From positions 1 through 7,044 of the forward strand of contig JAFOKI010000117.1 of the NCBI GenBank assembly GCA_017419895.1: a stretch of DNA of 7,044 bases. The letters run 5' to 3'. Source of the stretch: Eubacterium sp. GTDB taxonomy: Bacteria > Bacillota > Clostridia > Peptostreptococcales > Anaerovoracaceae. Below are positions 2 to 7,044 of the stretch, in pieces (position 1 is the first letter of the stretch; every line of letters starts with the position of its first letter). The notes below the pieces were generated by a model. It made no database searches, was not told where the DNA came from, and saw nothing but the letters and a program-made list of their open reading frames with translations. The translations under genes were made by a program, and so were the position numbers.

Positions 2-2269
2 ACCAATAAGAGAACAGACGAATACGGCGGAAGTTTTGAGAACCGCATGCGTATCGTGCTTGAGATCATTGAAGACATCCGTAAAAAGTGCGGCCCCGAC
101 TATCCTCTCGGCTGCAGAGTATCTGTAGATGAGTTCCTTAACACTATCGGCGTGAATGAGGATTACATCCACATCGAAGACGGTGTCAAGATCTGTATGA
201 CTCTCGAGGCAGCCGGAGTAGATTTCATCGACGTCAGCTGCGCTCTCTATGAGACAGGTCTGATGGCGGTAGAGCCGATCTCCTTCCAGCAGGGATGGAG
301 AAAACCGTTCGTAAAAGCTATCAAGGATCATGTCAAGGTTCCTATCATTGCGGTATCCTCGATCCGTGAGCCTGAAGTCGCGGAAGCATTCCTTGAAGAA
401 GGCGTTGTTGACTTCGTAGGCATGGGCCGTTCGTGGCTCGCAGATCCCGAATGGGGCAAGAAAGTACAGGAAGGCCGCGTGAGCGAGCTCAAGAAGTGCA
501 TCAACTGCCTGAGATGTTTCGAGACGCTGATGGCATGGAACTCGCAGGCTATCCCGTTCCAGTGCGCAGTAAATCCGTGCACATGTAACGAATATAAGTA
601 CGGCGATCTTGAACCCGTTACGGGTGATTACAAAGTCGTCGTAGTCGGCGGCGGCCCCGGCGGAATGACAGCGGCTGAGACTTTGGCAAAGAGAGGCGTC
701 AAGGTCACTCTGATCGACCGTCAGGAAGCGCTCGGCGGAACAGTCAACCTTGCAAAGAAACCTCCGCTCAAAGAGAGAATGGAATGGATCATGGACTACT
801 TCAGAGACAGCCTTGGCAAGCTCGGAGTAGATGTCCAGCTCGGAAAAGAAGTCACAGCGGATGACATCGCCGCGCTCGCGCCGGATGCAGTAGTCCTCGC
901 GACCGGTTCGAAATCGATCATCCCGGCTTCGCTCCCCGGCGTTGACGGAGACAATGTCTACACGATTGAAGAAGTCCTGACAGGCAAGAAGGACGTAGCG
1001 GGCAAGTCAGTCGCTATGATCGGCGCAGGTCTTACAGGTCTTGAAGCCGGTGAATATCTCGGCGACAAGGGCTGCAAGGTCACCTTTGTCGACATGCTCA
1101 AGGCTGCCGGCACCAACGCTTACAAGAACAATGTTCTTGACATCATGACCAGACTGAACAAGATGGACGTCGCATGGGCTCTCGGCCACGCGCTCAAGGA
1201 GATCCAGCCGGACGGCGTGATCGTTGAGAACGTCGATACAAAGGAAGAGAAGAAGATCGATGCTGAGGCAGTCGTTCTCTCGCTCGGCTACAAACCTGAC
1301 CAGAGCCTGAAGGCAGCCCTCGAGGAAAAAGGCATTCCTGTCAAACTCGTCGGCTCCGCAATACAGGACGGAACGATCGGCCCGGCTACCACAACAGGTT
1401 ACCTGGTCGGTGCGGAGCTGTTCAAAAAGCCTGCTAAGAGCTTTGTTATGCCGAAGGAAGATCTGATGGATTTCTGCAAGATTTCCTACATGAACGGACA
1501 GGAAGGTGTTTACCTCGCATACACCACTTATCCGGAAGCCATTGCCAAGATCCTCCCGGCACCGCTCAAACCGTTCTCGATCCCGGTCGTTTCGATTTCG
1601 TGCTGCCACATCAAGGATCCTTCCTTCGCGGATAATTACTATGAGACGATAATCGGTATTTACTGCACGTTCAACGGCCAGCTCGGTATGTATCCGGTGA
1701 GCATGCTGCTCGGCGGAGAAGGAGCTGAGATGGCTACATATCTCGGCCGCGACAATTCGTCCTATGCTAAGAAACTCGGCGCGGACTTCTTCATCCGCAA
1801 GACCGACGACGGCAAGGTAAAAGTCGGCGTGACCAGACGCGGTGAACAGGTACTGGATGTCGAGATGCAGCTCGGTCAGTACAACCACCCGCTGACACAC
1901 ATGCTCTATCAGGCACCGGCTCCGGGTAAGGAAACCGCAGGATCGGCGTATAACTTCCACTTTGACCGTCTGCCTGACGAGAACGGAGTCTGGAGATACA
2001 CCAACACATGCCTCGTTTCTACTCTGATTAAGTACAAATATGATTCATGGGCGCCGGGCTACATCAACAAGCTCGAGGTCAATTCCACAACGGACGATCC
2101 GTGGGGCTGCCTGCCCGTCAACACGATCATTGGCGGCGCGTATGCGGAGAACAACCTCCTCATCACCAATCTCACGAAACTCGCGGATGTGGATGCTGCG
2201 GAGCTCATGCCGATGATTATGCCGGCATGGTATGACCAGACCACATTCATGAAGACCGGACGCAAATAA
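2..2269 (+). CDS. OYE/2,4-dienoyl-CoA reductase-type flavin/Fe-S oxidoreductase fused to an acetoacetate decarboxylase-like domain (5' partial)
   Basis: The frame is open to the left edge and begins with the Old Yellow Enzyme signature NKRTDEYGGS just before the Met at 47, so that Met is internal and about 170-180 N-terminal residues (expected from the family) are missing. In the 755 visible residues: the end of the OYE barrel (1-160); four Cys for a [4Fe-4S] cluster at 166, 169, 172 and 188; an FAD Rossmann motif GGGPGG at 216-221 (nt 647-664); a second dinucleotide motif GAGLTG at 341-346 (nt 1022-1039); and an acetoacetate decarboxylase (ADC)-like domain from about 485 to 755. There is no stop or ribosome binding site at the junction, so this is a genuine fusion. 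By family, NAD(P)H electrons pass through FAD and Fe-S to FMN to reduce an activated C=C bond in the cytoplasm. The GD motif usual near the end of the FAD domain reads GS (Ser452). In the ADC part the KK pair is at 590-591. The reductase class is secure; substrate and ADC activity are unknown. Confidence 0.9.
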   Translation, partial: TNKRTDEYGGSFENRMRIVLEIIEDIRKKCGPDYPLGCRVSVDEFLNTIGVNEDYIHIEDGVKICMTLEAAGVDFIDVSCALYETGLMAVEPISFQQGWRKPFVKAIKDHVKVPIIAVSSIREPEVAEAFLEEGVVDFVGMGRSWLADPEWGKKVQEGRVSELKKCINCLRCFETLMAWNSQAIPFQCAVNPCTCNEYKYGDLEPVTGDYKVVVVGGGPGGMTAAETLAKRGVKVTLIDRQEALGGTVNLAKKPPLKERMEWIMDYFRDSLGKLGVDVQLGKEVTADDIAALAPDAVVLATGSKSIIPASLPGVDGDNVYTIEEVLTGKKDVAGKSVAMIGAGLTGLEAGEYLGDKGCKVTFVDMLKAAGTNAYKNNVLDIMTRLNKMDVAWALGHALKEIQPDGVIVENVDTKEEKKIDAEAVVLSLGYKPDQSLKAALEEKGIPVKLVGSAIQDGTIGPATTTGYLVGAELFKKPAKSFVMPKEDLMDFCKISYMNGQEGVYLAYTTYPEAIAKILPAPLKPFSIPVVSISCCHIKDPSFADNYYETIIGIYCTFNGQLGMYPVSMLLGGEGAEMATYLGRDNSSYAKKLGADFFIRKTDDGKVKVGVTRRGEQVLDVEMQLGQYNHPLTHMLYQAPAPGKETAGSAYNFHFDRLPDENGVWRYTNTCLVSTLIKYKYDSWAPGYINKLEVNSTTDDPWGCLPVNTIIGGAYAENNLLITNLTKLADVDAAELMPMIMPAWYDQTTFMKTGRK
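1454..2266 (+). other. ADC-superfamily domain within the fusion protein
   Basis: This is the C-terminal domain of the preceding gene, about 270 residues against 244 for Clostridium acetobutylicum acetoacetate decarboxylase (Adc). Compared with that sequence from memory, YTTYPEAIAKILPAPL matches the early helix and loop, and GRDNSSYAKKLG matches GRELSAYPKKLG around the Schiff-base Lys115-Lys116. The KK codons are at 1769-1774. The Glu in YYET (codon 1643-1645) aligns with Glu76. Adc Arg29 and Glu61 appear to be replaced by Gln (codon 1499) and Ser (codon 1598). An amine-forming Lys is therefore likely kept, while the pocket differs. ADC-superfamily members with other chemistry (aldolase-dehydratase type) are known, so decarboxylation is not assured. 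Confidence 0.75.
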
Positions 2270-2337: not shown

Positions 2338-3219
2338 ATGAAAGATTTTAAGGGCAAAGTAGCGATCATCACCGGCGCCGCTTATGGTTTCGGTAAAGAA
2401 TTCGTAAAACAGGCTGCTGAGCGCGGAATGAAGATCGTCGCTGTCGACATCGTTGGTGATGAACTGGCTAAAACAGGTGAACTTGCAAAAGAACTTGGAG
2501 CTGAGGACATAGTATGCATCACAGCCGATGTAGGTATCTATGCCGACACCGAAAAAGTCGTTAACGAGACGATGGAGAAATTCGGACAGATCGACCTCCT
2601 GATGTGCAATGCGGGAGTTGCTGTTCCGGGAGCCGGCATCAATCTGCCGCTTCGTGACTGGGAATGGATCGTTCAGACCAACCTCATGTCGCAGATCTAT
2701 TTCATGCGTCAGGTAGTGCCCATCATGATGAAACAGGGATGGCACTGCAATATCATGAACACCTGCTCGGTCGCGGGCGTTATCAACTTCACAGGTATGG
2801 TTCCGTATTTCACAACAAAGCACGCCGCTGTCGCGCTCAATGAGAGCCTGAACTATGAGCTCCAGGCTATGGGCGCAGACATCGCGATGGGCGTATTCTG
2901 CCCGGGCTATGTCCAGACACACCTCGACCACTCCGAGGAATACCGTCCCGAGCGCTTCAAAGCACCCGATGATCCATATTATGCGAGCGAAGAGTTCGCA
3001 AAGGGCCAGGCTGCCGCTAAATTCGTTATCGAGACAGGTTATCCGCTCGAAGGATTCGGCGCTACAGTATTCAAAGCGATCGAGGATGATCAGTTCTACG
3101 TCCTGACTCACAGAGAGTATGACGGAATGCTTCAGCTTCAGACTATGGAAAAACTCAAGATGAAAAATCCGAACCTCGCTGAACTCGTGGCTGCAATCAA
3201 CGCTGCGAAAGAAAAATAA
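2338..3219 (+). CDS. Classical short-chain dehydrogenase/reductase (SDR), probably NAD(H)-dependent
   Basis: This 293-residue cytoplasmic oxidoreductase should interconvert a hydroxyl and a carbonyl group. The cofactor motif TGAAYGFG is at 12-19, NAG at 91-93, and the catalytic tetrad is Asn115, Ser144, Tyr157 and Lys161 (YFTTK). The CPGYVQT motif follows at 189-195. Asp37 at the end of the second strand normally favours NAD(H) over NADP(H). At 293 residues it is longer than the usual 250, with an extended substrate loop near 196-226 and a C-terminal helix. It starts 68 bases after the reductase-ADC fusion on the same strand and is followed by a strong terminator, so the two are probably co-transcribed and act on one substrate series. 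The family includes hydroxysteroid dehydrogenases, but nothing in the sequence proves a steroid substrate. Family call is firm; substrate is unassigned. Confidence 0.93.
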   Translation: MKDFKGKVAIITGAAYGFGKEFVKQAAERGMKIVAVDIVGDELAKTGELAKELGAEDIVCITADVGIYADTEKVVNETMEKFGQIDLLMCNAGVAVPGAGINLPLRDWEWIVQTNLMSQIYFMRQVVPIMMKQGWHCNIMNTCSVAGVINFTGMVPYFTTKHAAVALNESLNYELQAMGADIAMGVFCPGYVQTHLDHSEEYRPERFKAPDDPYYASEEFAKGQAAAKFVIETGYPLEGFGATVFKAIEDDQFYVLTHREYDGMLQLQTMEKLKMKNPNLAELVAAINAAKEK

Positions 3220-3281: not shown

Positions 3282-3328
3282 AAAGCCCCGCGGCGGCATC
3301 TTTGATGGGATGCCGCCGCGGGCTTTTT
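3282..3328 (+). terminator. Strong rho-independent terminator of the reductase-SDR pair
   Basis: The arm at 3285-3300 pairs with 3309-3323 over 15 base pairs with a single bulged C, almost entirely G-C, around an 8-base loop. TTTTT at 3324-3328 follows, and three A's before the left arm can extend pairing into the T's. It sits 65 bases after the SDR stop codon and separates the enzyme genes from the secreted-protein genes. There is no comparable T tract on the minus strand, so it should act mainly on + strand transcripts. Confidence 0.93.
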
Positions 3329-3428: not shown

Positions 3429-3461
3429 ACAGTTATCCGATAAAATCAGGATTATTGGAAT

Positions 3462-3466
3462 GGAGA
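3462..3466 (+). promoter_or_regulatory. Ribosome binding site that fixes the start at 3473
   Basis: GGAGA lies 6 bases before ATG 3473. It argues against the in-frame TTG at 3455, which has no ribosome binding site at a suitable distance and would put six extra residues, including Glu and Trp, before the Lys/Arg-rich signal peptide start. Confidence 0.7.
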
Positions 3467-3472
3467 GTGGAA

Positions 3473-5389
3473 ATGAAAAGAAGAGTATTACTTATCACTG
3501 CAGCTGCACTAATGGCGCTTTTGATGGGAACGGTCATGGCGCACGCTGCAGACATGTCGTATGACGCGGCGACGCATACTTATACGCTTAATAATACAAC
3601 TTTGACCGAACCGATAGTACTCGAGGCGGACTCGACTATAATCGTTACAGGTAACAACTGGATCGATGACGGAGCAGGTCGTTGTATCGACGGCGTATAT
3701 GATGAAGAAACATATAGGCCAAAATACAGCGTGACCATTAAAGGCGGTGGAACTCTGACTCTTTCCGGCCAGCTCTATGCGAAGGATTTCACATTAAACG
3801 GCGGAACCAAACTTGTTTGTGAGGGCCCGCCGGGAATCATTATGTATGGAGTTGCTACAGTTACGGATTCGGAACTTATACTAGAGCATGGCGCCATCAA
3901 CAACTCCTCCTCCGGGTTGAAGAACACTTTCACGAATTCCAAAATAGAAACCAATCTGATGCCAGGGATATGTATGGGTGGTGACACGGTTCTGACGGAC
4001 TGTGTCGTGTCAACGAACGATTCATGGATCTCGGTGAATGGGTATGGCTATGCGTTGTACATAATTGGCGGAAAATATAGTATCTCGAATGGTCGATCTC
4101 ACTCCCCGGGTTTATACAGTTATTCAGGTAAGATTGTGATACAGGGTGCTGAAATCAAAACAGATACCTTCATGCAAGCCAAGGAACTCGAGATGACCGA
4201 TACGACGTATGATGCGGCGATGTTTTCAGTTCATGACTACGGCATCCATATTTACGGAGATTGTGTTATTTCGGGGAGTACGCTCAACCTCAGCGGTGAG
4301 AATATGACTCACGGATTATATAGCGACGGACCTCTGACGGTAAAAGACGGAACAGAAATGACCATAAGCAGCAATATTCTCGGGCTCGGCAGTGACAAGT
4401 CTGTTACTATTTCACATTCTTCAGTTGACGTCAAACTCACAGGCGATCTCGTGAGCGGGGTGCTGTTTTCGAAGTGTGAACCAAGCTCGATCACGCTCGT
4501 TGAAACCAGGTTCACTAAGCCTGCGAACTGTGTGATAGCTACAGCTCCCGGCTCTGAATCTGCCACGGTGCTTGATGCAACCACTAACGAAAGAATAAGA
4601 GAAGCGACCTTGACCGCCGATCACAAGTGGGATGCCGGTACGGTAACAAAGCCCGCGACAACCACAGCGGACGGTGTCAAAACATACACCTGCTCTGTTT
4701 GTAAGGCGACAAAGACCGAATCTATCCCCAAGACAGGCGGAAGCGACGGCACAGCTTTCGGCCAGGGAGCCGATGCATCGGCAGCAGAAGCCGCGATCCT
4801 CGCTCTTAAGGACGACAAAGACCCGAAGGGTACGGCGTTCGGAATCCTCCAGCTTAAGGCTTCCAAGATTACCAAGAGTAGCATCAAATTGACCTGGAAG
4901 AAAGCCCCCGGTGCCAAGAAATACATAATCTACTCGAATGCCTGCGGCAAGGGAAAGAAATACCAGAAACTGACGACTGTGACCGGCAAATCGACGACTA
5001 TCAAGAAAGTTGCCGGAAAGAAACTTGCAAAAGGTAAATACTACAAGTTCCTCATGGTAGCAGTCGACGCGAACAACAAGGTCGTTTCGACGTCCAAGAC
5101 AGTCCATGCAGCGACGACAGGCGGAAAAGTCGGCAACCCGACTAAAGTCACTACCAAAGCCAAGAAGAACAAGGTAACGGTCAAGGTCAAGAAAACGTTC
5201 AAGCTCGCAGGCAAGCAGGTGGGCAAGAAAGTCAAGAAACACCGCGCTGTAAGCTACGAAACATCGAACGCTAAGATTGCTACAGTTTCCAAAAAAGGCG
5301 TGATCAAAGGCGTCAAGAAGGGCACCTGCAAAGTCTACGCTTACGCCCAGAACGGCGTATGCGCTGTGATAAAAGTGACTGTAAAATAG
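3473..5389 (+). CDS. Secreted beta-helix-like surface protein with H...CxxC module, FN3-like and Big_2 domains
   Basis: This 638-residue exported protein begins with a Sec signal peptide: MKRR, a hydrophobic core, and AHA before a probable cleavage after Ala25. Residues 26-375 are rich in Thr/Ser/Gly and short alternating strands (repeated 'VTIKGGGTLTLSG', 'LTVKDGTEMTIS' patterns), suggesting a right-handed beta-helix or carbohydrate-binding solenoid. A module with His384, Cys407 and Cys410 (DHKW ... YTCSVC) follows. Residues 432-455 form a short Ala/Asp linker, 459-550 resemble fibronectin type III (LTWKKAPGAKKYIIY), and 556-638 a bacterial Ig-like group 2 domain (VSYETSN ... GVIKGVKKGTCKVYAYA). 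The tail is strongly Lys-rich. There is no LPXTG, SLH or terminal membrane segment, so the protein may be released or held by charge. It has its own promoter. Likely role is adhesion or glycan binding, by analogy only. Confidence 0.88.
   Translation: MKRRVLLITAAALMALLMGTVMAHAADMSYDAATHTYTLNNTTLTEPIVLEADSTIIVTGNNWIDDGAGRCIDGVYDEETYRPKYSVTIKGGGTLTLSGQLYAKDFTLNGGTKLVCEGPPGIIMYGVATVTDSELILEHGAINNSSSGLKNTFTNSKIETNLMPGICMGGDTVLTDCVVSTNDSWISVNGYGYALYIIGGKYSISNGRSHSPGLYSYSGKIVIQGAEIKTDTFMQAKELEMTDTTYDAAMFSVHDYGIHIYGDCVISGSTLNLSGENMTHGLYSDGPLTVKDGTEMTISSNILGLGSDKSVTISHSSVDVKLTGDLVSGVLFSKCEPSSITLVETRFTKPANCVIATAPGSESATVLDATTNERIREATLTADHKWDAGTVTKPATTTADGVKTYTCSVCKATKTESIPKTGGSDGTAFGQGADASAAEAAILALKDDKDPKGTAFGILQLKASKITKSSIKLTWKKAPGAKKYIIYSNACGKGKKYQKLTTVTGKSTTIKKVAGKKLAKGKYYKFLMVAVDANNKVVSTSKTVHAATTGGKVGNPTKVTTKAKKNKVTVKVKKTFKLAGKQVGKKVKKHRAVSYETSNAKIATVSKKGVIKGVKKGTCKVYAYAQNGVCAVIKVTVK
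4616..4738 (+). repeat. H...CxxC module, copy 1 (shared with 6786-6905)
   Basis: The codons from ADHKWDAG to IPK are repeated in the downstream paralogue at 6786-6905, with the same spacing of His to Cys (23 residues) and Cys to Cys (3). DNA identity is lower than protein identity because third positions differ, so the duplication is old and the protein sequence is under selection. Similar modules recur, as I recall, in secreted proteins of anaerobic Firmicutes; a metal-binding knuckle is possible but unproven. Confidence 0.7.
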
Positions 5390-5450: not shown

Positions 5451-5557
5451 AAAAAAGTGGGGACTTTTCCAACGATTGCCGGCTCCGGTTATGAGCCGCT
5501 TCCGGGTCTGATAGAAATCAGGTATCGGAACCGTTGGAAAAGTCCCCACTTTCTTTT
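5451..5557. repeat. Long palindromic element with 21-base inverted arms and two internal hairpins
   Basis: The arms 5454-5474 and 5532-5552 are perfect reverse complements over 21 bases and contain GTGGGGACTTTTCC. Between them, CGGCTC (5480-5485) pairs with GAGCCG (5493-5498), and CTGAT (5508-5512) pairs with ATCAG (5517-5521) around AGAA, giving a branched fold. A run of six A's precedes the left arm and CTTTCTTTT ends the right arm, so T tracts follow the stem on both strands. It may serve as the terminator for the gene ending at 5389, which has no other. Its form also fits a REP/MITE-like mobile repeat with GGGGAC-type ends. No transposase is present. Confidence 0.85.
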
Positions 5558-5846: not shown

Positions 5847-7044
5847 ATGAAAGGATCAAACCGCATCGCATCCTGCCTGGCAGCAGGAATCGTCTGCCTC
5901 GTCCTTCTGTTTCTGTTCGCCGCTTCGGAAAACGTCTTTGCGGCCACGGGAACCATGGAGGAGAAGGACGGGGTCATCACGCTGACAAATTATAAAACTG
6001 ACCAGCCGATCCAGATCGCCCCGGAAACTACCATCGTGCTCAATGGAGAAAATGAAATCAATCTTTCACAGTCGTCGGGGGACTATTGTCTTGTGCGCAG
6101 TGGCGGCAACTATGTTGAAAAACTGACGATCAAAGGGAGCGGCTCGCTAAAGACGAACGGTAAGCTGATTCCTTCGAACGAACTGGAGATCAATGGCGTC
6201 AAGGTCACGATCGATCATCCCTATGCGGGGTCACTGAGCTTAGACGACACCGTCATGGCAGCAAATAAAATAACGGTCTCAGGAGCGGAAGTAACGGTCA
6301 CTACAGGGAATATGGCCGCCATGGGCTTTCCGGATGAATCTGTGGAAGTTGTGATCAAGGATCATTCTGTAGTGAATCTGAAAACAGATCTGTCATCGTA
6401 TAGTTTTTTGGGAGGTGCTCTGACTGTTCAGGATTCCGATTTAAACGTGACCATGACCAGTAAAGGGGCTGAACTCATAGAGGGCAGTTATATTTGTGAG
6501 ACTGTGTGTTTTGGCTCCATCAAACTCAAAAATGCTGATCTGAAAGTGAAGGGAGTTAATGTTATTTTCGATTCTTTCTATAATCATGAGATCGACCATT
6601 CCAGCCTGGTGTTAGAATGCGAAGATCAGAAGAACCCCCTCGTTTTCATTAACGGCGAAAATAATCTGATCTTGAAGGACGCATCCCTCGTTGAGCCTGC
6701 AGGAGGGAAATTCGTTGTGTCAGGGTATGAAGACTATGTATTGGCAGATGCAAATGGAAAAGCAGTAACCAAAGTGATCATTGAAGCGGATCATAAATGG
6801 GATGCCGGTAAAGTAACAAAGGCGCCTACCATGAATGCGACAGGAGTCAAGACTTACACGTGCGCTGTCTGCGGTAAGACCAAGACTGAAGCTATTCCGA
6901 AGCTGTCGTCACAGGACAACTTCAAGCCAGGTGCGGACGCATCTGTGGCTGAAGCCTGCATCCTCGCGCTTCCCAACGATAATGACCCCGCGGGATCGCA
7001 TTCGGACTTCTCCAGCTCAAGGCTGCCAAGACAACAAAGTCTTC
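5847..7044 (+). CDS. Secreted beta-strand-rich surface protein, paralogue of the preceding gene; 3' partial and apparently frameshifted
   Basis: Translation from ATG 5847 gives a Sec signal peptide (MKGSNR, hydrophobic stretch, VFA before a probable cleavage after Ala32). About 280 residues of Gly/Ser/Asn-rich alternating strands follow (TIVLNGENEINLS, LTIKGSGSLKTNG). Next is the same module as in the upstream gene: His316, Cys339 and Cys342 in ADHKWDAG ... TYTCAVCGKTKTEAIPK, about three-quarters identical to the paralogue across 39 residues. The linker PGADASVAEACILAL is also shared. At about 6996 the match jumps frame: in-frame translation becomes unrelated (HSDFSSS...), whereas the frame beginning at 6998 reads AFGLLQLKAAKTTKS, matching AFGILQLKASKITKS upstream. 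One base seems missing. The frame then runs open to the right edge. A Lys-rich FN3/Big_2 tail is expected beyond it. Either a pseudogene or a sequence error. Confidence 0.8.
   Translation, partial: MKGSNRIASCLAAGIVCLVLLFLFAASENVFAATGTMEEKDGVITLTNYKTDQPIQIAPETTIVLNGENEINLSQSSGDYCLVRSGGNYVEKLTIKGSGSLKTNGKLIPSNELEINGVKVTIDHPYAGSLSLDDTVMAANKITVSGAEVTVTTGNMAAMGFPDESVEVVIKDHSVVNLKTDLSSYSFLGGALTVQDSDLNVTMTSKGAELIEGSYICETVCFGSIKLKNADLKVKGVNVIFDSFYNHEIDHSSLVLECEDQKNPLVFINGENNLILKDASLVEPAGGKFVVSGYEDYVLADANGKAVTKVIIEADHKWDAGKVTKAPTMNATGVKTYTCAVCGKTKTEAIPKLSSQDNFKPGADASVAEACILALPNDNDPAGSHSDFSSSRLPRQQSL
6786..6905 (+). repeat. H...CxxC module, copy 2
   Basis: This is the counterpart of the module at 4616-4738. 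It keeps His, both Cys and the Trp of HKW, while the preceding beta-rich regions of the two proteins are much more divergent. It marks where the conserved C-terminal part of the paralogues begins. Confidence 0.7.
6993..6998 (+). other. Probable single-base deletion (frameshift site)
   Basis: Homology to the upstream paralogue runs DPAG in the start frame up to 6995 and resumes as AFGLLQLK from 6998, with only TC left where a Ser or Thr codon is expected. The resumed frame keeps at least 14 residues of clear similarity to the window end. No slippery heptamer that would suggest programmed frameshifting is visible nearby. Confidence 0.75.

Follow-up and report, generated by a model that had tools for sequence, protein, structure and literature searches.

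A conserved fusion of an Old Yellow Enzyme-type reductase with an acetoacetate decarboxylase-superfamily domain, a possible two-step enzyme of gut and rumen anaerobes acting on unsaturated keto compounds

A 7,044-nucleotide stretch of DNA from Eubacterium sp. (GenBank assembly GCA_017419895.1, contig JAFOKI010000117.1), referred to here as the window and equal to one entire short contig (G000:C140), carries the 3' part of a gene in which a reductase of the Old Yellow Enzyme (OYE) family is joined to a domain of the acetoacetate decarboxylase (ADC) superfamily. The fusion is real and forms a single chain, and it represents a conserved family with recurring neighbors, not an isolated oddity. Tentatively, and with clearly less than an even chance of being right throughout, we propose a two-step enzyme by which gut and rumen anaerobes would reductively break down unsaturated keto compounds, and in which the OYE part would hand an enone-derived ketone to its own re-tooled ADC domain for Schiff-base C-C cleavage. 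The enzyme would belong to a PucR-controlled unit (PucR, OYE~ADC, short-chain dehydrogenase/reductase or SDR) that would have arisen by a single fusion of an existing OYE-ADC-SDR set and would now be present in Bacillota and Actinomycetota.

The + strand frame at 2-2269 is free of stops and runs off the 5' edge of the window, so that the window holds 755 residues of a gene truncated at the contig end. The full-length protein, P0002 (937 residues), was found on a 16,893-base contig; its residues 183-937 correspond letter-for-letter to the window protein, and the N-terminal 182 residues of the fusion protein fall outside the window, past the contig edge. An initial annotation, made from the letters of the window, had predicted an unusually long protein of about 930 residues, in which the reductase continues into an ADC-superfamily domain without interruption, and both predictions hold. 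In a single frame on the + strand, Pfam matches the C-terminal half of the OYE domain, which binds flavin mononucleotide (FMN) (Oxidored_FMN, PF00724, residues 1-160, 2..481, E 1.6e-26), a module for flavin adenine dinucleotide (FAD) and NAD(P)H (Pyr_redox_2, PF07992, residues 210-447, 629..1342, E 2.5e-33) and the ADC domain (residues 496-727, 1487..2182, E 1.2e-33). The corresponding matches in P0002 cover residues 4-342 (E 1.1e-74), 392-629 and 678-909. Between the first two domains lie four cysteine codons at 497, 506, 515 and 563 (497..565, + strand), spaced CX2CX2CX15C and corresponding to C348, C351, C354 and C370 of P0002, which we take to be the ligands of a [4Fe-4S] cluster. The order of Oxidored_FMN and Pyr_redox_2 is that of FadH/BaiCD-type flavoenzymes, the class named by the initial annotation.

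Membership of the C-terminal domain in the ADC superfamily is supported by an ADC fold and by a Pfam PF06314 match above cut-off, inside residues 485-755 where the domain had been expected. The ADC part was folded alone, because matches to the OYE part occupy the fold-match list of the full-length model. In the structure-model comparison the match to 2-naphthoyl-CoA reductase stops at P0002 residue 658, and the linker from the reductase to the ADC domain (1430..1486, + strand) extends from there to the Pfam ADC start at residue 678. The predicted model of the full-length fusion has a predicted template modeling score (pTM) of 0.70, with a predicted local distance difference test score (pLDDT) of 59 in the linker block 661-670.

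A search with the ADC part, restricted to proteins between 0.55 and 1.75 times as long as the query, returned 266 at E <= 1e-3. From 120 of these that were listed, 51 were picked for spread and near full length and aligned; all 51 match all three Pfam families, and 49 have a length of 935-938 residues. A scan with one genome per species, limited to the best 80 of 105 matches, gave 73 loci from other genomes; these are not independent, as L019 and L028 overlap on one contig and many are close relatives. In 64 of the 73, no stop interrupts the frame over at least 600 codons upstream of the ADC match, six others are cut by the locus edge and three (L047, L048, L058) reach a stop. The hosts include Mogibacterium, Lachnospiraceae and other bins from goat, sheep and roe deer intestine, as well as RUG-named bins, presumably of rumen origin. 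Among isolates, the fusion is present in Mogibacterium timidum, Clostridium cadaveris, Robinsoniella peoriensis, Oscillibacter ruminantium, Acetobacterium paludosum, Olsenella profusa and Tractidigestivibacter scatoligenes. In comparisons of the window with six relatives, the ratio of non-synonymous to synonymous substitution rates (dN/dS) is 0.09-0.18 for the ADC part and 0.06-0.07 for the reductase part in four of the six, dS being saturated in the other two.

Both halves retain residues expected of working active sites. In the OYE part, the four cysteines and an HxxHxY motif (His168, His171 and Tyr173 of P0002, upstream of the window start) are invariant in the 51 aligned homologs, and we infer that the His pair holds a carbonyl and that the Tyr is the proton donor. 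For the ADC part, we take Arg29, Glu61, Glu76, Lys115 and Lys116 to be the site residues of acetoacetate decarboxylase, and located their places by alignment with 3bh2. The Lys-Lys pair at the Lys115 and Lys116 places (window residues 590-591, 1769..1774, + strand; Lys772/Lys773 of P0002) and the Glu at the Glu76 place (residue 548, 1643..1645, + strand; Glu730 of P0002) are present in 51/51, and are also kept in unfused versions of the ADC part. By family knowledge, Lys772 is presumably the Schiff-base lysine and Lys773 its neighbor. The other two places have changed, likewise in 51/51: Gln is found instead of Arg29 (residue 500, 1499..1501, + strand) and Ser instead of Glu61 (residue 533, 1598..1600, + strand), whereas four canonical ADCs (L116-L119) keep Arg and Glu. 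Because of these two replacements, acetoacetate is probably not the substrate of the fused domain. The initial assignment to an acetoacetate decarboxylase-like domain therefore stands at the level of the superfamily, and a true acetoacetate decarboxylase has become less likely.

Two genes recur beside the fusion. In the window, an SDR gene (2338..3219, + strand; PF00106, E 1.1e-41) begins 68 bases downstream of the fusion gene. Behind it lies a terminator-like hairpin of 16 pairs (3287..3322, + strand), found by a pattern scan that detects five such sites in the region against 1.3 on average in shuffles. Of the 70 loci with room for one, 54 have an SDR gene no more than 1.2 kb to either side of the fusion; across the 73 loci, 68 SDR matches are located no further than about 1.5 kb from the fusion, and the other 913 kb contain 13. 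A PucR-type regulator is encoded within 1.5 kb of the fusion start, mostly divergently, in 55 of 65 loci with room, and Pfam confirmed HTH_30 on three such regulators (L056, L133, L161). The PucR family is tied to catabolic genes. The SDR partners are too generic for naming a substrate. Several loci (L036 935-12732, L039, L040, L042-L044, L049) carry two fusion genes around one PucR gene, one fusion accompanied by an SDR, often with a 3-hydroxyacyl-CoA-dehydrogenase-like gene, and the other by a doubled SDR.

Elsewhere the two halves are encoded by separate, adjoining genes. Within the G239 family, 14 of 40 genomes have an ADC match, five as the fusion and five as an unfused ADC beside a related OYE, in the order OYE-ADC-double SDR (L108, L109) or OYE-SDR-ADC (L110, L111) and, in the fifth genome, as the L090 locus described below. 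In the same family, the ADC match of G473 (L112) is weaker and adjoins a more distant OYE (31% identity); those of G348, G454 and G455 are weak and have an SDR match next to them. The more distant Bacillota genome G495 (L133; L121) encodes PucR on the opposite strand, followed by OYE, ADC and SDR as separate genes; this layout equals that of the fused loci, and the fusion therefore joined genes that were already adjacent. Among ADC genes of other kinds in a sample of the phylum (L116-L130), an OYE match lies beside the ADC in L121 only. The 37 stand-alone relatives of the window's ADC part include many on contigs of about gene length, which resemble fragments and were not counted as unfused. 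Taken together, ADC and SDR look like the core, with OYE added in some lineages and OYE and ADC made one gene in one lineage.

At L090, unfused ADC and OYE genes follow a glycyl radical enzyme and its activase, in the order glycyl radical enzyme-activase-ADC-OYE. The glycyl radical enzyme of this locus (3109-9762) scores 986.7 bits, just below the sulfopropanediol dehydratase cut-off of 1000, and the locus is possibly a different use of the same enzyme pair. No OYE was found beside the ADC in L091 and L092; the ADC-family gene of L091 (4372-9063; 283 residues) lies between genes for larger proteins that are Pfam-less or have a weak DUF362 match.

Trees were built from hand-chosen sequences, 47 rows for OYE and 37 for ADC. 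The OYE parts of the fusions group in one clade (25 rows, 100/100), as do their ADC parts (16 rows, 100/99). Several unfused rows are long-branched and of unsure placement, and bootstrapping of the ADC tree had not converged. Each of the two clades includes Atopobiaceae (Actinomycetota) as well as Bacillota, which is most simply explained by a single fusion event with later transfer between lineages. The fusion is rare close to the window's own genome. Any ADC match at all occurs in 10 of 391 genomes of the class, two of them (G000, G147) within long fused frames, and among the matches listed for 61 genomes of near kin, none outside G000 extends past query residue 487 into the ADC part.

We consider it a serious possibility, if somewhat short of an even chance, that the protein is bifunctional: it would first reduce the C=C bond of an enone and then, probably, decarboxylate the resulting ketone, or cut it next to its carbonyl, via a lysine Schiff base. 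Electrons would pass from NAD(P)H via FAD and the [4Fe-4S] cluster to FMN and on to the enone, the carbonyl of which would be gripped by the His pair while Tyr would donate a proton. The reduced, larger keto acid could then form an imine with Lys590 (Lys772 of P0002), and the imine may serve as the electron sink when CO2 is lost or a retro-aldol-type cut is made. The neighboring SDR might interconvert the matching alcohol and ketone, and PucR might sense the substrate and turn the unit on when it is present. We favor breakdown over synthesis because the ADC part is closer in sequence to ADC than to aldolase-dehydratases, and because of the PucR regulator. The fusion is read as functional coupling mainly because unfused ADC, SDR and OYE genes adjoin elsewhere; the coupling of C=C reduction to Schiff-base chemistry put forward in the initial annotation gains indirect support from this, and from the invariance of both residue sets. 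The two parts may act on one substrate, possibly with the channelled transfer of the intermediate that the same annotation suggested.

Several observations weigh against this proposal. The SDR is missing within 1.2 kb at 16 of the 70 loci with room (L018, L020, L021, L022, L033, L034, L048, L050, L054, L056, L058, L085-L089), of which L086 has a zinc alcohol dehydrogenase directly upstream in its place, and PucR is missing within 1.5 kb at 10 of the 65 (L020, L021, L022, L033, L034, L069, L085, L087-L089); all four Atopobiaceae-type loci (L085, L087-L089) lack both. In searches with the ADC alignment, the fusion was found in one of 17 genomes of the window's genus, with no match in the other 16. 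The OYE tree does not separate out the unfused partner OYEs: among them fall L003 and L004, OYEs of the window's genus that are located near a cyclase-family gene rather than an ADC. In six Bacillota genomes of the family of G495 (L159-L164; the six best other matches among 197 genomes), PucR is divergent to ADC-SDR and no OYE adjoins; L161 6881-10163 is an example of this minimal unit. Such loci indicate that the ADC step is not coupled to reduction in every case. Finally, the replacement of Arg29 and Glu61 could reflect a loss of decarboxylase chemistry.

A first alternative is that the ADC part performs other Schiff-base or acid-base chemistry that does not release CO2, such as opening of a ring diketone, retro-Claisen cleavage or tautomerisation. 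Retention of Lys-Lys and Glu at a site with changed Arg29 and Glu61 places is consistent with this, as is the location of related OYEs of the window's genus near a gene of the PF04199 cyclase family, which includes ring-opening members. The latter arrangement, with the cyclase-family gene in place of an ADC, is seen in L132 (3967-6913, by Pfam) and in L131 (by eye). However, the closest relatives of the ADC part in PDB sequences are annotated as acetoacetate decarboxylases and no test result points to a ring substrate, and we regard this alternative as unlikely, if far from negligible.

Less probable still is a reductive aldol unit, in which the ADC part would act as an aldolase-dehydratase that joins a keto acid and an aldehyde to an enone, to be reduced by the reductase part. 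The fused ADC part has its fold in common with the aldolase-dehydratases Sbi_00515, MppR and Swit_4259. Nevertheless, a search of the PDB with the sequence profile of the fusion family found no aldolase-dehydratase at E <= 1, and the Gln four residues before the lysine, a feature of Sbi_00515, MppR and L120, is absent from all 16 fused and all five clostridial unfused rows (column 111), which have Ser, Gly, Asn or Asp instead. A locus of the L090 type was seen once only. Both sequence results lower the case for such an identity, which we retain as a rival and judge improbable.

It is very doubtful that the ADC part is non-catalytic and serves the reductase as substrate binder or oligomerisation module. 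ADC is an oligomer, and the two changed site positions would agree with this role, but the invariance of the lysine pair and Glu in 51/51, the low dN/dS and the retention of the same residues by unfused versions argue against it.

An assembly or frameshift artifact can practically be dismissed, and a wrongly binned contig is improbable. The bin is fragmented (303 contigs, completeness 83.55, contamination 5.88) and only one of the 17 genomes of its genus has the gene, which leaves some room for wrong binning, yet the 64 in-frame loci, named isolates among them, refute an artifact of the fusion itself, a second contig carries the fusion as P0002, and contigs C155 and C216, which belong to the same bin, contain partial copies of an inverted repeat of the window.

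The rest of the window encodes two adjoining, probably secreted proteins (3455-5389 and 5847-7043) with a common type of motif, HKWDAG..TYTC.VC..TKTE.IPK. In the first, Pfam places a Big_2 domain close to the end, and the second runs off the contig. Between their genes (5451-5555) lies the inverted repeat, of 27 bases with 93% complementarity and 51 bases between the arms; the partial copies on C155 and C216 are of one arm. It is perhaps a small mobile or regulatory repeat.

Fusion proteins appear in their sources as '2,4-dienoyl-CoA reductase', 'oxidoreductase' or 'acetoacetate decarboxylase family protein', names that hide the combined activity. We found no description of an OYE-ADC fusion in searches of open-licence papers. 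The fusion is conserved, well defined and easily testable, and offers a handle on a reductive route in gut and rumen bacteria. As a second fusion type in these bacteria, with its unfused partners (ADC, SDR, PucR), it leads to a short, testable list of reactions, and its ADC part would extend the ADC superfamily by a branch whose pocket residues differ.

When compared with BaiCD, 2,4-dienoyl-CoA reductase (FadH) and 2-naphthoyl-CoA reductase, the fusion differs by the added C-terminal ADC domain of about 270 residues. The full-length protein is not BaiCD proper (NCBIfam NF041087; 473 bits against a cut-off of 825) or the long form of bilirubin reductase (NF045599; 413.8 against 750), and it also misses the cut-off of the mycofactocin model. 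From acetoacetate decarboxylases of the Clostridium acetobutylicum and Chromobacterium type (3bh2, 3bgt) it differs in the Gln and Ser at the Arg29 and Glu61 places and in the fused reductase. Each half thus belongs to a known superfamily, and a natural fusion of an OYE-family enzyme to a partner is already known: a gut-bacterial 5beta-reductase is reported to be naturally fused to a 3beta-hydroxysteroid dehydrogenase/isomerase in 61 of 257 homologs, a fusion that pointed to gut steroid metabolism (PMC12238238). The two systems have in common an OYE-family ene-reductase, a C-terminal partner enzyme and an occurrence in gut bacteria, whereas the partner is a Rossmann-fold dehydrogenase with steroid substrates in the one and an ADC-fold domain in the other (PMC12238238).
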